61,548 bases of DNA from Nostoc sp. FACHB-152 (GTDB taxonomy: Bacteria > Cyanobacteriota > Cyanobacteriia > Cyanobacteriales > Nostocaceae), in the NCBI RefSeq assembly GCF_014697475.1, contig NZ_JACJRV010000042.1:1-61548 (forward strand). Direction: 5' to 3'. The position numbers and the translations under genes are program-made. The stretch's first letter is position 1. Each line of letters opens with the position of its first letter. The notes under the pieces were generated by a model. That model did not search any database, was not told where the DNA came from, and was given only the letters and a program-made list of their open reading frames with translations. This document shows positions 1,508 through 35,451 of this stretch, piece by piece.

Positions 1508-2167
1508 TTGAGAAGATTTTCGTTAAATGCAATTCATACTAAACTAACCTTGACATCCTGGTTTTTTAACTCATACCACGAACAACCAATCACATCCGCC
1601 GCTAATCAAGTTGCCAAACAATTCCATATTCGTGCGGCTACACCTGCTGATTTGGCTGGTATTGCTCAAATTATTGCCGAAAGCTTTCACTCTCAAAATG
1701 GTTTCTGGGGATGGGCTTTTCCGTTACTACGTTTAGGAATTTATGAGGACTTCAGACAGCGTTTGTCATCATCTGCACCACATCATATTTGTTTAGTTGC
1801 GGTTGACGTTACTAATGCTGGGGTTCATAAGTTAGTAGGAACCGTAGAACTGGGCTTGCGTTTCCATGAATCTTGGAAACAAGGTGGTAAAAGTTTTCTT
1901 TATCTGTCTAACTTAGCTGTTGACCAACAATACCGTCGGCATGGTGTGGCCTCAAGATTACTGACTAGCTGTGAAAATATCTGCCAAGAGTGGGGTTATC
2001 AAGACTTATATCTCCATGTTTTGGAAGATAATCATCAGGCGAGGCAACTTTATTTTAAATTAGGATATCGGATGCACAAAGTAGAATATAATTGGAATTT
2101 ATTTTTTCTCAAAAGTCCTCGTCACTTATTCTTACACAAGCACCTGGCTGTTGATTCAATCAGCTAA
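1508..2167 (+). CDS. GNAT-family N-acetyltransferase
   Basis: This 219-residue protein carries a GNAT fold from about residue 40 to 190. FHIRAATPADLAGIAQII is the N-terminal beta1-alpha1 segment. LAVDQQYRRHGVASRLL is motif A, the acetyl-CoA pyrophosphate loop of the Q/R-x-x-G-x-A type. YLHVLEDNHQARQLYFKLGY is the C-terminal motif B region with the usual N-x-x-A-x-x-x-Y. The family transfers acetyl groups from acetyl-CoA to amines; the substrate cannot be told, and the closest style is RimI-like or amino-acid acetyltransferases. The start is a TTG with AGGA a few bases upstream; there is no ATG before the domain, so the first ~38 residues are uncertain. It stands alone, flanked by long AT-rich spacers. 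Confidence 0.82.
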   Translation: MRRFSLNAIHTKLTLTSWFFNSYHEQPITSAANQVAKQFHIRAATPADLAGIAQIIAESFHSQNGFWGWAFPLLRLGIYEDFRQRLSSSAPHHICLVAVDVTNAGVHKLVGTVELGLRFHESWKQGGKSFLYLSNLAVDQQYRRHGVASRLLTSCENICQEWGYQDLYLHVLEDNHQARQLYFKLGYRMHKVEYNWNLFFLKSPRHLFLHKHLAVDSIS

Positions 2168-2892: not shown

Positions 2893-3441
2893 ATGGATAG
2901 CGAAAAGCGACTACGCTATCAAACTACTATGGTTTCAACTTATTACCCCGACACTAGTTTCCTTGACCATTTTGTGATGCTAGATGGAACTGAGCAATCG
3001 TGCGGCTCGGATATCCTCACACTGCTGAACAGTGGGAAGGTTTTTATTATCAACAGTCGGAAGCGAAATGGATTAATACTTTTTAAACGTTACCATGCAG
3101 AATTTGCTGGGCCGGGAGCAGCCGTAGGTGGGGACTACGATAGTGATTGTCAAATCGCTCTGCCTATTGGTAATTTATCTTTATTAACTCCCGAATCCTA
3201 TGAAGAGCGTCAAAAAGCTTATTTAATACGCCGACAATGGATTCGGTTGATCAAACAGATTACTGAAAACTCAGTTCCTCAACAGCGAGTTCAAAAGATT
3301 TTAGATCAGTTTGAACAGTATTTTCCCCCAGAGGTGGTGGCTCATTTGCCGGATAAAGCTTTTGCCCTTTTAGTAGGAGTATTGCCACAGACTGTAAGTA
3401 TCGTACGCCGTTTGGGCGGCGGAGCAGATATTCGATATTAA
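2893..3441 (+). CDS. Conserved-type hypothetical protein with HTH-like C-terminus
   Basis: I do not recognise this protein. The ATG start gives 182 residues; an in-frame TTG at 2848 would add 15, with no better ribosome-binding site. The N-terminal half is mixed beta, with segments such as GKVFIINSRKRNGLILFKRY. There is a glycine-rich stretch AEFAGPGAAVGGDYDSDC, and then an amphipathic helical region from about residue 120 that is rich in Arg and Gln. The last 30 residues, PDKAFALLVGVLPQTVSIVRR, resemble the helix-turn-helix of Crp/Fnr-type regulators (A-x-x-x-G-V-x-x-x-T-V-S), but the protein ends just after the putative recognition helix. There is no signal peptide or membrane segment. A DNA-binding role is inference only. 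Confidence 0.6.
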   Translation: MDSEKRLRYQTTMVSTYYPDTSFLDHFVMLDGTEQSCGSDILTLLNSGKVFIINSRKRNGLILFKRYHAEFAGPGAAVGGDYDSDCQIALPIGNLSLLTPESYEERQKAYLIRRQWIRLIKQITENSVPQQRVQKILDQFEQYFPPEVVAHLPDKAFALLVGVLPQTVSIVRRLGGGADIRY

Positions 3442-3549
3442 TTACTAATACAGCGTTTTTCGTTTGAGTGCAGTACAAGTAGATAAGGAAAAGCGGCTCT
3501 TAGGCTAGAGTAATGTAACTTATTGGGGCGAAAACTGCTGTATATATAG

Positions 3550-4698
3550 TTAAGATTCAAGATTCGCTAAAGCGGCTTGTATTCGTTCCAAGGTACGGTT
3601 ATTTTCCTCTGCCGTCCCAACAGTAATTCTCAATCCTCCTGGAAGTAATCGCACAAGTGTGCCAGAGCTTGTGAGTTTTTGATGTATGCTTTTTAAAGCA
3701 GTATCTGGTGAGTTATAAGTATTGGGTTTAAGACGCAGATAAAGAAAGTTAGCAGCACTTTCTGTAACTTGTAATGCTTGATATTGCGACAAAACTGTGA
3801 CCAATTTGTCTCGTTCAGTGAGTGTTGGTGAAATTGCACTGAGTAAGAGTTGACGGTTTTGCAAAGCTGTCTTAGCTGCGATTAGCGAAAAACTAGGAAG
3901 ATTGTAAGGCAAGCGAACTTTTTCTAAAATAGCGATCGCTTCTGGATGAGCAATACAATATCCTACACGCAGTGCAGCTAAACGAAATGCTTTAGAAAAT
4001 GTGCGTAAAATTATCCAATTAGGACGCTGTGCCAATTCACCGACTAAGGTATCTTGGCTAAATTCAAAGTAAGCTTCATCAATTACTACTAAAATCTGTT
4101 CTGGCAAACTTTTCAGCCATGTCAACTCAGCCTTAGTTAGCTTATTCGCCGTTGGAGAGTTGGGGTGGACAACAAAAACTACCCGAATAGGTGGATGTTG
4201 AGTTTGTTCTATTGCAGACTTTGAAGCTTTTAAGTCTATTTCAAAATTGGTTTCGTCTCTGCCTACAGTCACTACTGGAATGCCCAAAGTTTGCGCTAAA
4301 ATCCCGTACATAGAAAAAGTGGGATTAGCTACTAGAATTGAACCTTCTCCTCCCAGACAAGTAGCGATTAATAAAGAGCGAATTAGTTCATCTGAACCAT
4401 TCCCTACAGAAATATTGGCAGATGTAAATACTGCTGGAGAGAGATTAGCCGATTCATTCACGTACTCGGCGATCGCTTCTTTTAGTTGCTCATGTCCGCC
4501 ATCAGGATAGCGATTGGTTTCTATGACTTCTTGATATGTCCAGGCTAGTTTTTCTTTTAATTCAGGTGGTAAATCATAAGGACTTTCATTTGTATCCAGT
4601 CGGTCAAACTGTGTGGTGACTGGTTCAGATGTATTACTGCTGGGGTGAGGTTTGTAAGCAGTGAATTGGGCTAAATCTGAGCGGATAAAAGGAAGCAT
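3550..4698 (-). CDS. hisC: Histidinol-phosphate aminotransferase
   Basis: HisC is a PLP enzyme that converts imidazole-acetol phosphate plus glutamate to histidinol phosphate in histidine biosynthesis. The 382-residue length fits a fold-type I class II aminotransferase. Visible motifs are [11 protein letters not shown] near the N-terminus, [16 protein letters not shown] for cofactor phosphate and substrate binding, [12 protein letters not shown] with the PLP-contacting Asn, VIDEAYFEF with the PLP-pyridine Asp, and [16 protein letters not shown], where Lys236 is the Schiff-base lysine. The C-terminal [10 protein letters not shown] holds the substrate-carboxylate Arg. Other aromatic aminotransferases share this fold, but the N-terminal NESP-type motif and the length favour HisC. 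It is monocistronic in this view, separated from the esterase by 80 bp holding TAGTCAA/TCATTA-type repeats. Confidence 0.93.
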
Positions 4699-4778
4699 AA
4701 TTTTTAGTCAATAGTCATTAATTAAAATTACGAATGACTATGTTATTGAATAATGGGAGAGTTCCATATTTTACCGCG

Positions 4779-5414
4779 TTACGGTAACTGACAGAACAGG
4801 CAAATTGCTTGCCAAATTTCTGTTGTGACATTTGCTAAAGCATGATCGCTATCGAGTTCTATCAACTTTACCCAAGGACGATATCGCGCAAAGTCTCTAC
4901 TAGCGGTAATTGGAATAACCTCATCTTCCATACCATGCAAAATCAGCGTTGGAATAGGACGTTGTAACTTATCCTCTTGGTATTGTTGTGCATCTGTAAC
5001 GAAATCGTAACTCAAAGGTAGCGATCGCTTTTCCCCGTAATGGTAGACCATAAGATAATTTTCATCTTGCCAACGCTTGACTGCTTCATCTCCTAGCTTT
5101 GGCAACCAATGTGATAAAAAACCAAAGGCTGGTGCTAATAGAATTAAGAGTTGCACTTGTTGGTATTGCTGTCCTAAATGAGCCGATACTAGGCCGCCTA
5201 AACTTGAGCCGATTAAGGTGACTGGTGCAGAATCATCTGGAAATTCTGCCGCAATTTGATTGATTTGACGCGTGATTGTTAGCTGAGAAAAGTCAGCAGT
5301 ATTTAGGTCTGGAATTTTTAGCTGTGTCTGAATTTTAGCAAAGCGATCGCATATAGCCTGTGCTTTGGCAGATTTAGGCCCAGAAGCAAAACCATGAAGA
5401 TAAATGTATTGCAA
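4779..5414 (-). CDS. YqiA/YcfP-like alpha/beta-hydrolase (esterase)
   Basis: The 211-residue alpha/beta-hydrolase has the UPF0227/YqiA signature. MQYIYLHGFASGPKSAKAQA is the HGF-x-S-x-P-x-S start. LIGSSLGGLVSAHLG is the nucleophile elbow G-S-S-L-G with the catalytic Ser near residue 69. LILHGMEDEVIP carries the catalytic Asp, and LDSDHALANV carries the terminal His. The length matches the family. The family has short-chain acyl esterase activity in vitro; the natural substrate is unknown. The start Met is immediately before the conserved core, so it is secure. It is soluble, with no signal peptide. Confidence 0.85.
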   Translation of the reverse strand: MQYIYLHGFASGPKSAKAQAICDRFAKIQTQLKIPDLNTADFSQLTITRQINQIAAEFPDDSAPVTLIGSSLGGLVSAHLGQQYQQVQLLILLAPAFGFLSHWLPKLGDEAVKRWQDENYLMVYHYGEKRSLPLSYDFVTDAQQYQEDKLQRPIPTLILHGMEDEVIPITASRDFARYRPWVKLIELDSDHALANVTTEIWQAICLFCQLP

Positions 5415-27688: not shown

Positions 27689-28813
27689 ATGGATATTTAT
27701 CAAGTTGCACTTCGTCCGCTACTGTTCAACTTTCTGAAAACAGATGCAGAGTGGTTACATCAGCAGGCTATTCGCAGTTTAAATTGGTTATCACAGACAA
27801 ATAATGCTCCTGCTGGCTTAATCAATCACAGTTTACAGCAGTCTTTGTGTCTGCGCGATCGCCGTCTCGAACAAAATTTGTTTGGGTTAAATTTTCCCAA
27901 CCCGCTCGGTTTGGCAGCAGGTTTTGATAAAGATGGGGTAGGAGCAAAAATTTGGTCTAACTTTGGTTTTGGCTTCGCAGAGTTAGGGACTGTCACTTTT
28001 CATCCACAACCCGGTAATCCTCAACCCCGATTGTTTCGCTTACCCTTAGATCAAGCTGTTCTTAACCGTATGGGCTTTAATAATCAGGGTGCAGCAGCAA
28101 TGGCGGCTAGGCTAACTGAAAACAAGGAGTTCAATCATTCGATACCCATCGGCATAAATTTAGGCAAATCTAAAATTACACCTTTAGAAACCGCCGCCGA
28201 AGATTATCTCAACAGTTTTCGCTTACTTAAAGAATTAGGCGATTATTTTGTGGTGAATGTATCTTCACCCAACACTCCCGGATTGCGATCGCTCCAAGAT
28301 GCTGCCATGCTAGGTGCTATCTTGGACGTACTACAAAAAGAAAACAATACATATAAACCAATATTTGTCAAGATAGCACCTGATTTAGAATGGGAAGCGA
28401 TCGCCGACATTATTGGATTGGCTAAAACCTATCAGTTAGCAGGAATCATAGCCACAAACACCACAATCCGCCGTGATGGACTGAAAACAGAGATAATTTA
28501 CCCAACTGGTAAACCACCGCAAGAAGAAGCTGGCGGGATTAGTGGTGCGCCATTGTGCGATCGCTCCACAGAAATAATTAAGTTTATTTGGCAGCAAACC
28601 CAAGGGCAAATTCCCATTATCGGGGTTGGGGGCATATTTTCCCCAGAAGATGCTTGGGAAAAAATTACTGCGGGAGCCAGCCTAATTCAAGTCTATACGG
28701 GCTGGATTTATGAAGGCCCAATGATGGTGCGTCGAATCTTGACTGGTTTGCTATCCAAGTTAGAACAAAACAAATTAAATTCCATCACCGAAGCGGTTGG
28801 GTTAGAAGTATGA
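27689..28813 (+). CDS. pyrD: Dihydroorotate dehydrogenase (quinone), class 2
   Basis: PyrD oxidises dihydroorotate to orotate in pyrimidine synthesis; class 2 enzymes are membrane-associated and pass electrons to quinone. From ATG 27689 the protein has 374 residues and begins [19 protein letters not shown], the usual class 2 amphipathic N-terminus. FMN and substrate motifs include [56 protein letters not shown] with the class 2 catalytic Ser, ATNTTI and [22 protein letters not shown] at 27590 with AAGGAGG three bases upstream would add 33 hydrophobic residues; its Shine-Dalgarno is strong but too close, so I prefer the ATG and note the alternative. It is divergent from the GAF gene. Confidence 0.95.
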
Positions 28814-28869
28814 AGTCTAAAGTGTGAAGTCTGAAGTTTTATTCTTTAGCCTTCACTCTTAATTATTCA

Positions 28870-29653: not shown

Positions 29654-29994
29654 TGGGACGTGTTTTTGTATCTTTTGGCAAAATTACGGAAAAATACAGG
29701 AGTGCGATCGCCAATCTAAACCTTTTAACACTCAACCAACCCATATTTTCGGCAAAAACAAGCAAAAAATTTTTGCCATATCAACAAATCCTCAGCCAAG
29801 ACAAAAATTTTACACAAACATTAAGAAATATTTCCCTACACAAACTCCGCGTCAATCTCCGCACCCCTTTGCGTTTAAAAATATATCCCTCGCTTCCCCT
29901 CAAGAAAAAATCACCTAACCTATTGACGTTTAATACTACATATACTACATTAAATACTACAAGCTGATTTTCCCAAAGGAGTTAGCCCCAAACT
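29654..29994. other. Intergenic upstream of Y-RNA cluster
   Basis: About 340 bp, A-rich on the plus strand, with overlapping short frames but no supported gene. It should contain the promoter for the first Y RNA and possibly the whole cluster; I cannot assign -10/-35 with confidence. Confidence 0.4.
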
Positions 29995-30129
29995 GTAGCG
30001 GATAGCTCAAATACCAGAGCGCCCACCTTGCCTGTAAAGGCCGACATATCGAGGGTTATCGCAAATAATTTAAAACACCCTTGAGAAAAATTTCTGGAGG
30101 TGCAGGTGAAAATCCTGCTCCGCTACACC
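29995..30129 (+). ncRNA. Y RNA 1 (YrlA-like), degenerate tRNA-like shell
   Basis: An 8-bp outer stem (GTAGCGGA at 29995-30002 with TCCGCTAC at 30119-30126), D-arm-like GCTC/GAGC at 30005-30020, and a T-arm-like hairpin GCAGG/CCTGC at 30102-30118 make a tRNA-like shell. In place of an anticodon arm is the core CCTTGCCTGTAAAGGCCGA, a 6-nt spacer, then GAGGGTTATCG. GGCCGA and GGTTATC correspond to the GGUCCGA and GUUAUC elements of Ro-binding Y RNAs, and the core recurs in three other RNAs around rsr. The shell is worn: the D-loop (AAATACCA) lacks GG and the T-loop is TGAAAAT, not TTCRANN. Confidence 0.8.
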
Positions 30130-30225
30130 TAAACAAAATGCTGAGTCTAAATCTCATAATTCTTAATGAAAAAATCCGTAAAAACCCTTTAGGCAAAGCT
30201 TAAATTTTAAATTCACAATCTTATA

Positions 30226-30362
30226 TGTGGCGGGTGGCGAAATTGGTAAACGCACTTGAAAATAGCCTTAATTCATACCTTGTCTGAAAAGGCCGAAGAG
30301 TTGAGGGTTATCGGATCTAGCAACGTAAGTTTTGCGGGTTCAGGTCCCGCCCCGTCACACCA
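30226..30362 (+). ncRNA. Y RNA 2 (YrlA-like), tRNA-Leu-like shell with encoded CCA
   Basis: An outer stem GTGGCGGG (30227-30234) pairs with CCCGTCAC (30351-30358) over 8 bp with one G-U. It is followed by TG, a D-arm GCGAAATTGGTAAACGC with the conserved GG, and a perfect T-arm GCGGG-TTCAGGT-CCCGC (30334-30350). The 3' end reads ACCA, so the CCA is encoded at 30360-30362. The D-arm wording is close to that of cyanobacterial tRNA-Leu. The Ro-type core ACCTTGTCTGAAAAGGCCGA then GAGGGTTATCGG lies at about 30277-30314. No anticodon arm can be folded, so it is not a normal tRNA. Confidence 0.85.
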
Positions 30363-30383
30363 AACCTACTTTTAAATTCTCAT

Positions 30384-30510
30384 GTGGCAGGTAGCTCAAT
30401 GGTAGAGCGCCAAAAACATCTTTGTTCACTCCTTGCCTGCAAAGGCCGACGAATGAGGGTTATCGACTCATAATCGGGAGGGCTGTAGGTTCGATTCCTA
30501 CCCTGCCACC
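30384..30510 (+). ncRNA. Y RNA 3 (YrlA-like), well-formed tRNA-like shell
   Basis: An 8-bp perfect outer stem (GTGGCAGG 30384-30391, CCTGCCAC 30502-30509), linker TA, D-arm GCTC-AATGGTA-GAGC, and T-arm GTAGG-TTCGATT-CCTAC (30485-30501) are all canonical. The core CTCCTTGCCTGCAAAGGCCGA, in part at 30430-30449, is followed by GAGGGTTATCGA, and ATGAG/CTCAT can pair around it. A small hairpin CAAA/TTTG joins D-arm and core. It ends 37 bp before the rsr start codon, so it may be processed from the rsr mRNA leader. Confidence 0.88.
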
Positions 30511-30546
30511 TTTCATTTTTGCCCGCAAGGGCTGGGAGATGAAGCC

Positions 30547-32148
30547 ATGAACTATAAGTTCTTCACTAAAAACAAGACAACCACCCCACAAAATCAGCCC
30601 ATCCCCGGACGGGAATCCGAGATGATTCAAGGACGTTCTGGTGGCTGGATGTTTGATGCTGGCATTTGGCAAATGCTGCGGCGTTGTCTGTTAGTTGGGA
30701 CAGCCCAAAGCACTTACTATGCTGGTAAACAAGAATTAACTGAAGATTTTGTAGCGGTTGTCAACCAAGCTGTTGCCGAAAATCCCAGCCGTGTCGCCGA
30801 AGAAATTCTCTATGCTAGCGATGGACGCGCTATTAACAACAGCGCACCTATCCTTGCTTTAGTGTTGCTATCAATGGGTGAAACAGGGGAAGCAAAACAA
30901 GCTTTTGGTGAAATCTTTCCTCAAGTTGTTCGCACAGGTAGTCACTTCTACGAATGGCTGAACTACACCAAATCTCTGCGGGGCTTTGGTAAAGTTGTGC
31001 GGGAAGCAGGTAAAACTTGGCTATCACGGGAAGATGTCAAGGGTTTAGCTTATCAACTGTTGAAATATCAACAACGCCAAGGCTTCACCAACCGCGATGC
31101 TTTGCGTTTATTCCACGTCAAACCACCCACAGAAAATCACCGTCAATTATTTGAATGGGTTGTCAGAGGTTGGTCAGAATTACCAACAGAGATACCCTCA
31201 CAAGCGTTAGCGCAGATTTGGTGGTATGAATGGCTCAAGCGCAACCCTGAGCAAACTCATGAAGCCATTTTGCAAGGACGCTTAACCCACGAAATGGCTG
31301 CACCCGTGGGCAATATGGATAAGCAAGCTTGGCAGTTGCTATTTCAAGAAATGCCTATCGGTGCAATGTTGCGTAACCTGGGTTCATTAACTGAACTGGG
31401 TGTATTACGTGCTGACGAAAGTGCAAACTTAGGGCGTGTGGAAGGAGTTCTCAACAACAAAGAACATCTGCGTAAAGGTCGCATTCACCCAATCGATGTT
31501 TTGAAAGCCCTCAAAACCTACGAGTCTGGCGGCAGACTTGGACGCAGCAAGAAAACTTGGAACCCAGTTCCTCGCATTGTAGACATCTTAGAAAAAGCTG
31601 TTGAGTTGTCTTTTGATGTCGTAGAACCCACAGGCAAAGTCTTCATGCACGCCGTAGACGTTTCCGGCTCGATGGGTAGCTTAGTTGCAGACATGGGGCT
31701 AAGTTGCTGTGAAATTGCCACCACAATGGCACTTGTCACAGCCAAAGCCGAGAAAAACTACATGATTCGCGGCTTTGCTACCGAATTCCGGGACTTAGAT
31801 ATCACTGCCAAAGATAGTTTTAGTTCGGCTGTGCGTAAAGCCAGCAACCAAAACTTCGGTGGTACAGATGCGTCGGTAGCTTACGACTGGATGATTAAAA
31901 ACAAGTTCAAAGCTGATGTAGTCTGCTTCTGGACTGACTCAGAAAGCTGGGCTGGATATAAGCATCCTAGTCAAGCCTTGAAGGAGTATCGCAAAAAAGT
32001 GAATCCAGATGTGAAGGCTGTATACGTCACCTTGACACCATATCGCATCACCTTGGTAGATCCCAAAGATCCACTGTCTTGGGATTTAGCAGGATTTGAC
32101 CCTGGTACACCTCGCATCATCCAAATGCTAGCGACAGGTGAACTGTAA
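30547..32148 (+). CDS. rsr: Ro60 orthologue (TROVE + vWA), Ro sixty-related protein Rsr
   Basis: 533 residues, close to the length of animal Ro60. The N-terminal TROVE domain (about 20-360) is a ring of HEAT-like helices; visible family segments are MLRRCLLVGTAQSTYYAGKQ, LYASDGRAINNSAPILAL, RRFL-type KYQQRQGFTNRDALRLFH and GAMLRNLGSLTELGVL. The C-terminal von Willebrand A domain (about 365-533) has the MIDAS D-x-S-x-S in AVDVSGSMG near residue 370 and NFGGTDASVAYDWM for the MIDAS Thr/Asp. Ro60 rings bind misfolded RNA ends in the cavity and Y RNAs on the rim; in Deinococcus, Rsr with Y RNA couples to PNPase. Four Y RNAs flank it, strongly supporting the call. A Shine-Dalgarno-like GGGAG lies about 10 bases upstream of the ATG. 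Confidence 0.97.
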   Translation: MNYKFFTKNKTTTPQNQPIPGRESEMIQGRSGGWMFDAGIWQMLRRCLLVGTAQSTYYAGKQELTEDFVAVVNQAVAENPSRVAEEILYASDGRAINNSAPILALVLLSMGETGEAKQAFGEIFPQVVRTGSHFYEWLNYTKSLRGFGKVVREAGKTWLSREDVKGLAYQLLKYQQRQGFTNRDALRLFHVKPPTENHRQLFEWVVRGWSELPTEIPSQALAQIWWYEWLKRNPEQTHEAILQGRLTHEMAAPVGNMDKQAWQLLFQEMPIGAMLRNLGSLTELGVLRADESANLGRVEGVLNNKEHLRKGRIHPIDVLKALKTYESGGRLGRSKKTWNPVPRIVDILEKAVELSFDVVEPTGKVFMHAVDVSGSMGSLVADMGLSCCEIATTMALVTAKAEKNYMIRGFATEFRDLDITAKDSFSSAVRKASNQNFGGTDASVAYDWMIKNKFKADVVCFWTDSESWAGYKHPSQALKEYRKKVNPDVKAVYVTLTPYRITLVDPKDPLSWDLAGFDPGTPRIIQMLATGEL

Positions 32149-32155
32149 AAAGGCT

Positions 32156-32191
32156 GAAGTATGAAGTATAAAATTTCATACTTCATACTTC
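32156..32191 (+). other. 14-bp hairpin between rsr and Y RNA 4
   Basis: GAAGTATGAAGTAT at 32156-32169 and its exact complement at 32178-32191 form a 14-bp stem with an 8-nt loop. It is made of TGAAGTA heptamers, the STRR style. It sits 8 bp after the rsr stop and 9 bp before Y RNA 4. No T tract follows, so it may be an RNA processing or stabilising element rather than a terminator. Confidence 0.6.
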
Positions 32192-32200
32192 ACACTTCTC

Positions 32201-32310
32201 GGCGGGTTATCCCTTGTTCGCAACTTGCCCTTTGGGACGAAGAATTTAGGGTTATCGGTTAACGTCTCCACCATCTCCGGGGACTAGCGGGTTCAATTCC
32301 CGCACCCGCC
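32201..32310 (+). ncRNA. Y RNA 4 (YrlA-like), shell without a D arm
   Basis: A 7-bp outer stem GGCGGGT (32201-32207) / ACCCGCC (32304-32310) and a T-arm GCGGG-TTCAATT-CCCGC (32287-32303) are tRNA-like. The segment after the 5' strand, TATCCCTTGTTCGCAA, does not form a D arm. The core is CTTGCCCTTTGGGACGA, spacer AGAATT, TAGGGTTATCGG (about 32223-32256): the small hairpin here is CCC/GGG, a changed version of CCTT/AAGG in the other three. It is downstream of rsr and followed by a strong terminator. Confidence 0.82.
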
Positions 32311-32336
32311 TTTATCCATTCACATAATTAATTAAA

Positions 32337-32363
32337 AAACCCGTCTCGGCGGGTTTAGTTTTT
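32337..32363 (+). terminator. Rho-independent terminator after Y RNA 4
   Basis: AAACCCG (32337-32343), loop TCTCGG, CGGGTTT (32350-32356), then AGTTTTT. It is a compact stem with a T tract on the plus strand, placed 26 bp after Y RNA 4. It probably ends the whole Y RNA/rsr transcript. Confidence 0.85.
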
Positions 32364-32524: not shown

Positions 32525-32985
32525 GCATATTCCAAGAGTTGGACTTCACTACTCTCACTGGAAAAGTGATTACCGCTTCCGGTGTTAAACCTACTGTTGA
32601 GGTGAAATGGCCACGGGATAAATGCGTGGATTTATGGTGCAATTGAACCATTGACTGGAGACCACAACATTATGAGTACCCAAAACTGGATGGCGAATGT
32701 TTTCAACAGTTCTTGGACTGGCTATCTCAACAATTAGGCTCGGATTACGCTATCTTACAGGTTGACCAAGCACCTGCTCATACAAGTTCAAAGATCTGTT
32801 GGCCAGAAAATATTATTCCTCTGTTTCAACCAGCATCAGCCCCTGAAATCAACCCGATTGAGAGACTTTGGCAACTCCTCAAGAAACCACTTAAAAATCA
32901 ACTTTTCTCTTCTTTACAAGCTTTACGCGAACGCATCCAAGAAATCTTCGACCAACTCACATTTGAGCAGGTAATTTCTATTTAA
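32525..32985 (+). pseudogene. IS630-family transposase remnant
   Basis: Pieces of one transposase lie in three frames: LDFTTLTGKVITASGVKPTV (from about 32536), then YGAIEPLTGDH, then YEYPKLDGECFQQFLDWLSQ and the long C-terminal part DYAILQVDQAPAHTS, IIPLFQPASAPEINPIERLW. The D...E part of the DDE triad is visible as QVDQAPAH and NPIERLW, the IS630/Tc1-mariner style. At least two frameshifts and a missing N-terminus show it is dead. No terminal inverted repeats were found. Confidence 0.87.
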
Positions 32986-33132: not shown

Positions 33133-35451
33133 TCAACTGCCTGGCCAAGGTGTAGTCGGTGCGTCTGAATCATCAAATGTATTGATCAAAGATTTATCTG
33201 TCGGCACAGTATTAATATTCTGATAACTTGTCAATTCATCAAGCACTGCTAACACTTCTAATGCTGACTGATATCGCTGCTTAAAATCATCCAAGACCAT
33301 TTTGCTGAGAATCTCAGCTAGGGTATCGCTGACAAAAGCCTTATGTCTCCATTGCCACTCTTCATCTTCACTTCTGCTGATTTCATGGGGTGGAATTCCA
33401 GTTAAGGCTCGAATACCAATCATCGCGATCGCATAAATGTCACTACTATATTGGGGACGACCAAAACATTGTTCGCTGGGTGCATAACCCTTAGTACCAA
33501 TCCCAATAGTAAATGGGGTTTGATCTATATTTTCAATTTGAGGTGTGGATAGTTCTTTAACCGCACCAAAGTCAATCAATACTAGCTTGTGATCAATATC
33601 TCGGCGGATGATATTGCTGGGTTTTATATCTCGGTGAATGACACCGTTTTCATGAACAAATACTAATATTTGCAATAATTCCCTGATAATTTGGATGACT
33701 ACGATTTCTGGCAAACCGTAACCTAAAGGTAGTTCCTTAGCTAAGGAATGACCCACTATATATTCTTGTACTAAATAAAATTCATTATCTTGTTCAAAAT
33801 AAGCCAGCAGTTGGGGAATTTGGTTGTGATTACCTAATCTTTCCAGGGTTTGTGCTTCTGAGTTGAATAAACGTCTAGCTAGTTCTAAACTTTTGGATTG
33901 CGTGTTGGCTGGTTTGAGTTGCTTAACAACGCAGTGGGGATAACTAGGTCGTTGCAAATCTTCAGCAATGTAAGTTTCGCTGAACCCTCCAGAACCTAAA
34001 ACTTTGACAATTTTGTAGCGTCCGGCGAGGATTTTTCCTGATACGGCTAAATCTCTTTGCTGGAGTAAATCTTGCAGGTCATTCTGTTGGCTAATAATTT
34101 CTTGGACAACAGGAGATGTTTTATATTTTTGAAAAATAGTTACTAATTGGCGGGTTCTCATCTTTTCTCTGGCCATTTCCGTTCCTAGAAAAGACAATCC
34201 ATTAAATGCGATCGCTATCATTGGTATAGCCGTCGGGAAAATTAACTGACCATAGATGAAGCTGAAATAGCTAATTCCTCCCCAAATGCAGGCTACAGCC
34301 ATACTTGCCAAAAATCTTTTGAGATTGTTCTTAGTTTTACTAACAACATAGACTGTACCGCCTACTAAAATCAACACAAATAAACCTGCCAAACCAGGGC
34401 TAGAAATTGCTTGAGCGATCGCTTTATTCTGCATTAAAGTAGCGATCGCATTGGCATGAATTTCCACCCCAGACATCCGTTCGGCTATATTAGCAACAGC
34501 TACCGGATGATAATCATTGTTTAACTTATCTGTTGAGCCAATCAAAACTATCTTGTCTTGAAAAACTCGGCCTTGTTGCAAATAGTTATTCCAGTTTTGT
34601 GAATCAAGGACGTACCATAAAGGGATATGTTCAAATGTTCCCGCCGACCCCCAAAAATAAATGCGATCGCCTTTTGGCTGGGGATATTTTATTTGTGCTG
34701 TGCTTAAAACTGCTTCATCAAAAGAAGCTACTTTCTCTGTCAAAACATTATCTGTTGCTAAAAGTTTAGAAAATTCACTTGCCAATTTGTGAACTTTGCC
34801 ATCTGCCTCTAGAGGGAAATTTACTGACCCATAAGCAACTGAACCTACTTGAAATATGTCTTGCGGTAAAGTCAGTTGCATAAACGTGCCTTGATGGCTT
34901 TCAGAATTTTCGTAGAGTGCTGCTAATGTCACTTTACTACCATATTTTTTTAATACAGCTTGGAGTTGGAGATCGTCCTCGCTACTATAGCTACTTGGCG
35001 TATCAAAAACTACATCAACGGCAACAGCCTGCGCCCCAGATTTGACTAATTTTTCGATAATTTGAGCATAAGCAGCACGTTTAAACGGAAAAGATTTCAG
35101 TGGTTCTAGGTAGGCATACTGTTGTGGATTTAAATTATAGTACTGTTTGGGAACTGAAATTGATTGATCATCAATAGCCAAAATTACGATATCGGCTGGC
35201 GGTACTATCGTTCCCCGCAGTTGAAAAAATGCAGAAATTGTCTGACTCTCCATCAAATTAACCCAGCCCCAACCAGAAGCAGCCATTAATGCTGCTCCAA
35301 TTGTGGAAGCAGCCACTAAAAAATGGTTGAAGCGAGCCACGAGTTGAGATTGGTTAGATGCTGTGAGAGTTACTTTTGTGGGTTTGCCTGACGCTATATT
35401 GGCAGTAGAGACATATTTTTTATTCGCGCTAGATGTAGGTTCTTCTGCCAT
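33133..35451 (-). CDS. CHASE2-domain membrane Ser/Thr protein kinase
   Basis: 772 residues. One N-terminal membrane helix (FLVAASTIGAALMAASGWGWV, in part, about 45-66) leads to an extracytoplasmic CHASE2 sensor at about 75-335 (IVILAIDDQSI, AVAVDVVFDTPS, DKIVLIGST, MSGVEIHANAIATLM). Three membrane helices follow at about 345-425. The kinase domain (about 465-740) has YKIVKVLGSGGFSETYIAED, VVKQLK, HRDIKPSNII near residue 604 and LIDFGAVKEL, with a complete catalytic set. CHASE2 plus Ser/Thr kinase is a known cyanobacterial signalling architecture; the ligand is unknown. The gene stands alone; its start codon is followed upstream by 830 bp without genes. Confidence 0.94.
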   Translation of the reverse strand: MAEEPTSSANKKYVSTANIASGKPTKVTLTASNQSQLVARFNHFLVAASTIGAALMAASGWGWVNLMESQTISAFFQLRGTIVPPADIVILAIDDQSISVPKQYYNLNPQQYAYLEPLKSFPFKRAAYAQIIEKLVKSGAQAVAVDVVFDTPSSYSSEDDLQLQAVLKKYGSKVTLAALYENSESHQGTFMQLTLPQDIFQVGSVAYGSVNFPLEADGKVHKLASEFSKLLATDNVLTEKVASFDEAVLSTAQIKYPQPKGDRIYFWGSAGTFEHIPLWYVLDSQNWNNYLQQGRVFQDKIVLIGSTDKLNNDYHPVAVANIAERMSGVEIHANAIATLMQNKAIAQAISSPGLAGLFVLILVGGTVYVVSKTKNNLKRFLASMAVACIWGGISYFSFIYGQLIFPTAIPMIAIAFNGLSFLGTEMAREKMRTRQLVTIFQKYKTSPVVQEIISQQNDLQDLLQQRDLAVSGKILAGRYKIVKVLGSGGFSETYIAEDLQRPSYPHCVVKQLKPANTQSKSLELARRLFNSEAQTLERLGNHNQIPQLLAYFEQDNEFYLVQEYIVGHSLAKELPLGYGLPEIVVIQIIRELLQILVFVHENGVIHRDIKPSNIIRRDIDHKLVLIDFGAVKELSTPQIENIDQTPFTIGIGTKGYAPSEQCFGRPQYSSDIYAIAMIGIRALTGIPPHEISRSEDEEWQWRHKAFVSDTLAEILSKMVLDDFKQRYQSALEVLAVLDELTSYQNINTVPTDKSLINTFDDSDAPTTPWPGS

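Follow-up and report, generated by a model that had tools for sequence, protein, structure and literature searches.

A Y RNA is defined by a Ro-binding helix that combines a GGCCGA-type strand and a GUUAUC-type strand with an unpaired C, and the classic examples come from animals and Deinococcus radiodurans. In the YrlA family, as modelled in Rfam, the elements follow the order Ro stem 5' strand, T arm, closed acceptor hairpin, D arm and Ro stem 3' strand. The transfer RNA (tRNA)-like domain of YrlA is described in one account as binding PNPase and as being modified by DusA and TruB (PMC8394870). Here, we analyzed a stretch of 61,548 nucleotides (nt) from Nostoc sp. FACHB-152 (contig NZ_JACJRV010000042.1, positions 1 to 61,548; the window), in which an rsr gene, encoding an orthologue of Ro60, is accompanied by four candidate Y RNAs, named Y1 to Y4. 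This locus probably consists of one Rsr protein and four tRNA-hybrid Y RNAs that carry the Ro helix in the anticodon region.

The rsr gene (30547-32148, + strand) is intact and encodes a protein of 533 amino acids with Pfam matches to TROVE (58.5 bits) and vWA_Ro60 (131.3 bits). Alignment to solved structures yields E values of 7.2e-73 for 2nvo (Rsr) and 5.7e-72 for 1yvp (Ro60), so the protein has both the domain pair and the structural similarity of Ro60/Rsr proteins. Residues K170, R174 and H187 of 1yvp, which we take to be RNA-binding residues of Ro60, align to K173, R177 and H190 of the window Rsr, and the vWA motif DVSGS is retained in the alignment to solved structures.

Three of the RNAs lie upstream of rsr and one downstream, and every element that the original prediction had described at the locus was recovered. 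The proposed common core, CTTG(C/T)C...GGCCGA (GGGACGA in the fourth) followed by (G/T)AGGGTTATCG, was located at 30027-30060, 30279-30312, 30432-30464 and 32224-32256 in Y1 to Y4, respectively. Each core is enclosed, as had been predicted, by a tRNA-like outer stem with a T arm, namely, a 7-base-pair (bp) acceptor-like stem, a 5-bp T stem and a 7-nt T loop. The Ro helix of these RNAs displays the GGCCGA-type and GUUAUC-type strands and the unpaired C of Y RNAs. The AGGGTTATCG pattern is not enriched overall in the 8.6-Mb genome (18 copies on both strands, compared to 35 for the reversed control pattern). Four of its eight forward copies fall inside 2.2 kb at the rsr locus, and this clustering is therefore not due to chance.

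Y3 (30384-30509, + strand) is a cloverleaf with the Ro arm in its anticodon stem and a G-1:C73 pair, as supported by covariation, the Rfam tRNA model RF00005 and R1, a covariance model built here on the main class of these RNAs (class U). Its anticodon stem is perfect (CC, Ro arm, CGA CUCAUAA UCG GG), with outer pairs at 30410-30411/30477-30478, inner pairs at 30464-30466/30474-30476 and the 7-nt loop CTCATAA at 30467-30473. Y3, itself one of the 33 model sequences, scores 123.9 bits with R1. RF00005 matches it at 30386-30507 with 35.4 bits (cut-off, 29); Y1, Y2 and Y4 are not among the 93 matches listed for that model, for which 150 of 587 candidates were scored. With the Ro arm removed, ARAGORN reads Y3 as tRNA-Met(cat). 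Y2 (30227-30358, + strand; motif reading and ARAGORN after cutting) resembles a tRNA-Leu with an extra variable arm and a 3' end reading C-ACCA. Its Ro core sits in the anticodon loop, its R1 score is 77.6 bits, and removal of the Ro part leads ARAGORN to report tRNA-Leu(tag).

The other two RNAs were assigned by motif reading and RNAalifold. Y1 (29995-30126, + strand) belongs to class D, which shows a second strand order of the Ro helix: the acceptor (29996-30002/30119-30125, with a possible extra G-1:C73 pair) and the D arm (30005-30020) are followed by the lower Ro hairpin and core, and only after the core comes the upper Ro strand (CCCUUGAG). Y4 (32201-32310, + strand) combines the acceptor GGCGGGT/ACCCGCC with a variable-arm-like hairpin and a T arm. 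It has no D arm, and this, together with the position of the Ro module in the anticodon arm region, amends the original prediction. R1 scores Y1 at 45.9 bits, under the best ordinary tRNA of the genome (49.6 bits), and Y4 at 54.3 bits, just over it; R1 is therefore to be read as a model of class U.

To assess the structure across relatives, RNA units were delineated by a script that demands an acceptor and a T stem, so pairing in these two stems is partly a product of construction. The D, anticodon, 15-48 and Ro pairs played no part in finding units. A tRNA-like frame was assigned to 303 of 321 cores, with at least five loci read in the wrong orientation there, unused afterwards. Units scoring at least 22 from loci L034-L113 and the window were kept (n = 237; 13 of 236 unparsed in one pass). 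For alignment A1, 124 units picked by length and tRNA-like 5' sequence were thinned to 34, and omission of L112:3378-3510 left 33 diverse RNAs, which represent class U.

In class U, the Ro arm is inserted in the 5' strand of a kept 5-bp anticodon stem: the 5' strands of pairs 27-43 and 28-42 precede the arm, and pairs 29-41 to 31-39 follow it. Across the whole A1 structure, 97.0% of 1187 cells are paired, and both sides have changed in 25 of 36 pairs. None of 500 shuffles matches the paired fraction or the covariation score, one matches the pair types, and sliding the structure leaves 39.7 to 55.7% of cells paired. Since the acceptor and T stems had been used for delineation, the count was repeated without them: 95.4% of 791 cells are paired and 14 of 24 pairs have changed on both sides. 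None of 500 shuffles does as well, 23 match the pair types, and slides leave 30.9 to 58.4% paired. When all column pairs are ranked by covariation, 13 of the top 14 are structural, including anticodon pairs and the Levitt pair 15-48, which is GC in 25 rows, AU in 5, GU in 1 and unpaired in 2. Covariation therefore supports the D, anticodon and lower Ro stems and the 15-48 tertiary pair even without the acceptor and T stems.

Taken alone, the anticodon stem of A1 is paired in 90.9% of 164 cells, and after sliding in 22.6 to 45.1%. Position 28-42 switches between CG and UA, 31-39 shows four different pair types, and no shuffle out of 500 attains the covariation score of the stem. Pair 29-41 is broken in six rows. 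In four of these, a G immediately before the module could take the C as its partner instead, giving the appearance of an insertion point one base downstream.

This organization is widespread among cyanobacteria. A contig scan with the window Rsr retained the best 80 of 168 relatives, with cyanobacterial record titles. Near rsr in these 80 loci lie 258 sense Ro cores (217 upstream, 41 downstream) and no antisense core. Up to six cores occur per locus and at least one in 78 of the 80 loci, the two without being L063 and L091. The presence of several different, tRNA-mimicking RNAs for each Ro protein, as proposed for the window, is conserved among cyanobacteria. A phylum search covered 292 genomes, with 12 candidates scored per genome under stricter filters. 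Matches to R1 of at least 56 bits, a line set after the scores were seen, occur in 23 genomes, all of which have an rsr match; with cores in 78 of 80 rsr loci and an rsr match in 23 of 23 such genomes, these RNAs are, like Y RNAs, encoded together with a Ro60 orthologue. On R1, 71-nt tRNAs peak at 55.5 bits, and no genome free of an rsr match exceeds this value. An rsr match is present in 31 genomes and is full-length at 70% identity or more in 23, of which 22 reach 56 bits with R1; the remaining one, G126, has Ro cores as well as R1 matches of 45.5 to 51.5 bits. An R1 match of at least 56 bits is also found in G098, where Rsr is 38% identical. Divergent rsr genes occur among many tRNA genes in L217 (G174:C31:41500-50000) and L212 (G098:C179:8500-16000), and L212 holds a Ro-arm tRNA at 1799-1919 (- strand, 69 bits). 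Dense tRNA gene arrays are also present elsewhere in the Nostoc genome (G000 contigs C143, C24 and C176), some with weak model scores.

The other classes are conserved to different degrees. For class D, unguided RNAalifold on 27 sequences including Y1 (alignment A2, from which L065, one of 28, was omitted) gives the acceptor, the D arm, the lower Ro hairpin and the T arm, as well as an upper Ro helix formed with the strand 3' of the core. Both sides have changed in 12 of 27 pairs. For the Y4 type (25 sequences including Y4), the helices are retained, with two-sided changes in merely 3 of 31 pairs. Loop-insertion types besides Y2 are present among the relatives, too. The T loop opens with TTC in 200 of the 237 units, the exceptions including Y1 and most of class D. 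Most class-U units (129 of 138) and class-D units (32 of 34) could form an eighth acceptor pair, G-1:C73, for which 3 of 25 loop-insertion units and none of 40 Y4-type units have the bases. CACCA stands at the 3' side of 52 class-U and 12 class-D units, and U1-A72 is found in 27 of 33 A1 rows, whatever the anticodon. Class U and tRNA (RF00005) have the cloverleaf helices, U33 and the Levitt pair in common. Class U differs from tRNA by its Ro insert of about 50 nt in the anticodon arm, its drifting triplet and U1-A72, and by the likely 8-bp acceptor that most class-U and class-D units share and that may bar these RNAs from translation.

Some observations weigh against four Y RNAs built in this manner. 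For the anticodon stem alone, 87 of 500 shuffles have at least as many pairs changed on both sides and 248 at least as many pair types, and unguided RNAalifold on A1 leaves this stem unpaired. The upper Ro-helix pairs are mostly invariant and hence show little covariation. Single-sequence fold z scores are mixed (-4.73, -0.52, -1.85 and -2.13 for Y1 to Y4), the fold of Y2 being no better than shuffles. For both Y2 and Y3, the fold of minimum energy differs from the one proposed. Moreover, 8 of the 31 genomes with an rsr match do not reach 56 bits with R1; one of them is G126, with its Ro cores, and in the other seven the rsr match is distant or partial. Finally, the PNPase partner considered below is proposed by analogy only.

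The covariance-model test suggested in the original prediction failed for YrlA. The sole RF02553 match in the window is partial, scores 27.4 bits against a cut-off of 69 and bridges the T arm of Y2 and the D arm of Y3, leaving the four RNAs unrecognised; likewise, none of the 292 phylum genomes has a match above the cut-off. As the window match spans two tandem units, and a similar weak match occurs among ordinary tandem tRNA genes (G000:C176:26450-26563), it was dropped as evidence. Five of six phage Ro genes also have YrlA-like matches below the cut-off (36.1 to 52.1 bits; none at E up to 0.01 for the sixth). Failure to score as YrlA is therefore a weak argument by itself, and the difference lies in the order of the arms.

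YrlA and the window RNAs share a Ro helix joined to T, D and acceptor arms and are encoded beside rsr. These three tRNA-like arms are present in class U, in class D and in Y2 once cut, with Y4 lacking the D arm. In the window type, the order is acceptor 5' strand, D arm, Ro helix, anticodon arm (where present), T arm and acceptor 3' strand. Whereas the ends of YrlA pair in the Ro stem, class-U and class-D RNAs end in an open acceptor stem; neither ends paired in the Ro stem nor the order T arm, acceptor hairpin, D arm was seen in the alignments. A sequence profile of A1 was compared with six Rfam YrlA matches that are full-length and adjacent to Ro genes (L144, L147, L212, L225, L230 and L231; all under 69 bits). 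The profile aligns in two pieces of swapped order in three of the six. When the YrlA-type sequences are doubled, one near-full-length match crosses the joint in four (for example, positions 5-117 in L225, 34.8 bits) and a partial match does so in L147, with none in L230. Among shuffled doubled sequences, 1 of 300 matched (3.9 bits); with three ordinary tRNAs, the pieces come in normal order. The swapped pieces and joint-spanning matches therefore indicate, at the sequence level, that the class U design and YrlA are related as circular permutants. It may be speculated that YrlA was born by a register shift in a tandem array. This permutation had been overlooked in the original prediction, as had the retained anticodon arm and the second strand order of Y1. 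Sub-cut-off YrlA-type matches beside weak Rsr matches are also found in two phylum genomes, G087 and G093.

In comparison with the classic Y RNAs, the window RNAs have the same Ro helix, with GGCCGA/GGCCGGA-type and GGGTTATC strands. The strands come in swapped order, however, and are capped where the classic termini sit, with the tRNA body occupying the other end of the helix. This suggests that Ro proteins tolerate permuted Ro helix strands. Classic-type cores were detected by pattern in the phylum relatives G095 (L213) and G076 (L214), and the neighbours of L213 are, by Pfam, rtcA and rtcB. Among viral sequences, a pattern scan for the cyanobacterial core gave no match and a scan with the window Rsr no relative; the G098 Rsr retrieved two loci. 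On one viral contig from IMG/VR (L222), an RNA at 3246-3391 (R1, 77 bits) carries the Ro arm in its anticodon stem, with the loop CTTGAAA. By inspection, the same rsr locus also holds two YrlA-like and two classic-type Y RNAs, so that a single rsr gene is accompanied by five Y RNAs with three topologies at 3000-4060. Searches of the literature by title and the start of the abstract returned no paper on an architecture of a tRNA with a Ro arm.

By analogy with YrlA, the most likely role of the window RNAs would be that of Rsr-bound tRNA-like tethers or gates. Rsr would grip the Ro helix with the surface conserved in Ro60. RNase P, RNase Z, the CCA enzyme and modifiers of the T and D loops could gain access through the free acceptor end and the elbow of the tRNA, leading to maturation. 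The tRNA body might then be the handle by which the Rsr ring is gated or attached to a partner such as PNPase, and several bodies per locus would constitute a set of interchangeable handles. The earlier idea of a set of alternative scaffolds is plausible in this sense. Transcription, processing, Rsr binding and a PNPase or other partner are all expectations drawn from the DNA sequence. With regard to expression, a TROVE gene of Chlorogloeopsis fritschii PCC 9212, which may or may not correspond to the rsr considered here, is reported to rise dramatically after erythromycin (PMC6424891). Strain PCC 6912 of the same species (L076) carries RNAs of the type described here.

A different purpose might be read from the anticodon loops. 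Of 103 units read in fixed register, 102 have U33 and 100 have a purine at position 37, with 34 distinct loops in all; 18 loops are seen in the 46 units close to rsr. In 316 unit pairs, each drawn from different loci and 93 to 97% identical elsewhere, position 33 differs in 0%, position 34 in 37% and position 32 in 34%, although these pairs are non-independent and orthology was not set pair by pair. The drifting triplet argues against decoding of a fixed codon. The pattern is compatible with a loop whose shape is kept while its triplet varies, as well as with a triplet under relaxed selection. Under the former, the Y-tRNA hybrids would be decoys or sensors for tRNA-cutting nucleases, held by Rsr, with the fold kept and the triplet varied, and Rsr or RNA repair would be engaged when such nucleases act. 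YrlA has been suggested to inhibit an anticodon nuclease competitively, according to one account (PMC7790460), and rsr occurs together with such an RNA on the viral contig L222 and in the tRNA array of L212. In contrast, Y1 and Y4 have no canonical anticodon loop, loop-insertion types such as Y2 disrupt it, and relaxed selection on an unused triplet would produce the same drift. RtcB, present in 53 of 60 relatives, does not track rsr (24 of 60) and is thus uninformative. We regard a decoy or sensor function as unlikely.

The Ro module could instead be an intron-like insert, excised to give a working tRNA and a free Ro-binding RNA. Its position in the anticodon stem or loop recalls tRNA introns, and ARAGORN recognizes all 33 A1 rows as tRNA once the Ro arm is excised, compared to 0 of 660 shuffles, 0 of 33 uncut rows and 30 of 33 uncut rows with the intron option. 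However, 5 of the 33 cut rows have no readable anticodon, and misplaced cuts are still accepted as tRNA in 11 to 33 of 33 rows. The ARAGORN outcome is a measure of tRNA-likeness, not of a boundary or splice site, and the insertion boundary therefore rests on covariation. Furthermore, the triplets differ among close relatives and include AAA and AGG, U1-A72 and the possible G-1:C73 pair recur as described above, and the 14 matches that Rfam gives for the locus at E up to 10 include no group I intron family. Excision to a functional tRNA is thus very improbable. Least credible of all are decaying tRNA genes beside a Y RNA locus, pseudogenes without shared function: the bodies do resemble several different tRNAs and the Y2 fold matches shuffles, but compensatory change affects the D, anticodon and Ro stems and the 15-48 pair, and their strand and position are conserved in 78 of 80 loci.

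Returning to tRNA-hybrid Y RNAs bound by Rsr, the locus bears on the purpose of tRNA mimicry in bacterial Y RNAs, as two known modules appear here in a new order with an open acceptor end. Together with the complete anticodon arm of the main class, this would allow the contributions of tRNA end, elbow and anticodon loop to be tested one by one. The locus also connects Ro60 in a concrete way with tRNA damage, and R1 provides a covariance model for RNAs missed by Rfam. In a broader proposal, cloverleaves with a Ro60 arm in the anticodon stem would form an undescribed RNA class, arrayed in cyanobacteria and on at least one viral contig and related to YrlA as circular permutants. Their drifting anticodon loops would be displayed on Ro60 to bait or sense enzymes that cut tRNA, and Ro60 would act in tRNA surveillance or defence. 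Taken as a whole, this proposal is doubtful, slightly more so than the decoy function it includes.

Ro-like proteins were also noted in 350 phage records, mostly from Mycobacterium (195) and Streptomyces (115) phages, all below 60% identity. In Gordonia phage GMA2 (L231), region 4210-4987, directly after a Ro60-like gene, contains a transfer-messenger RNA (94.6 bits), a YrlA-type match (43.1 bits) and a Pistol ribozyme (56.8 bits; cut-off, 34.5).

Within the window, an intrinsic terminator-like hairpin of eight pairs followed by AGTTTTT lies 3' of Y4 (32337-32356, + strand; terminator scan), in a region with nine terminator-like sites on both strands compared to 3.2 expected. Upstream of Y1, the promoter scan gave a weak sigma-70-like match (29923-29951, + strand; 9/12), a kind of match found at chance level in the region (5 versus 4.1 expected). 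A near-perfect inverted repeat (TGAAGTATGAAGTATAAAATTTCATACTTCATACTTC) occupies 32147-32200, between the rsr stop and Y4. It is marked by Rfam mir-5856 matches far under the cut-off, and a similar TGAAGT-rich sequence is found at about 28785-28860. Just 3' of the Y RNA locus, an open reading frame of 90 amino acids (32713-32985) matches the last part of a transposase domain (DDE_3, 36.3 bits), and a CHASE2 and protein kinase gene follows further downstream on the - strand (33133-35451).

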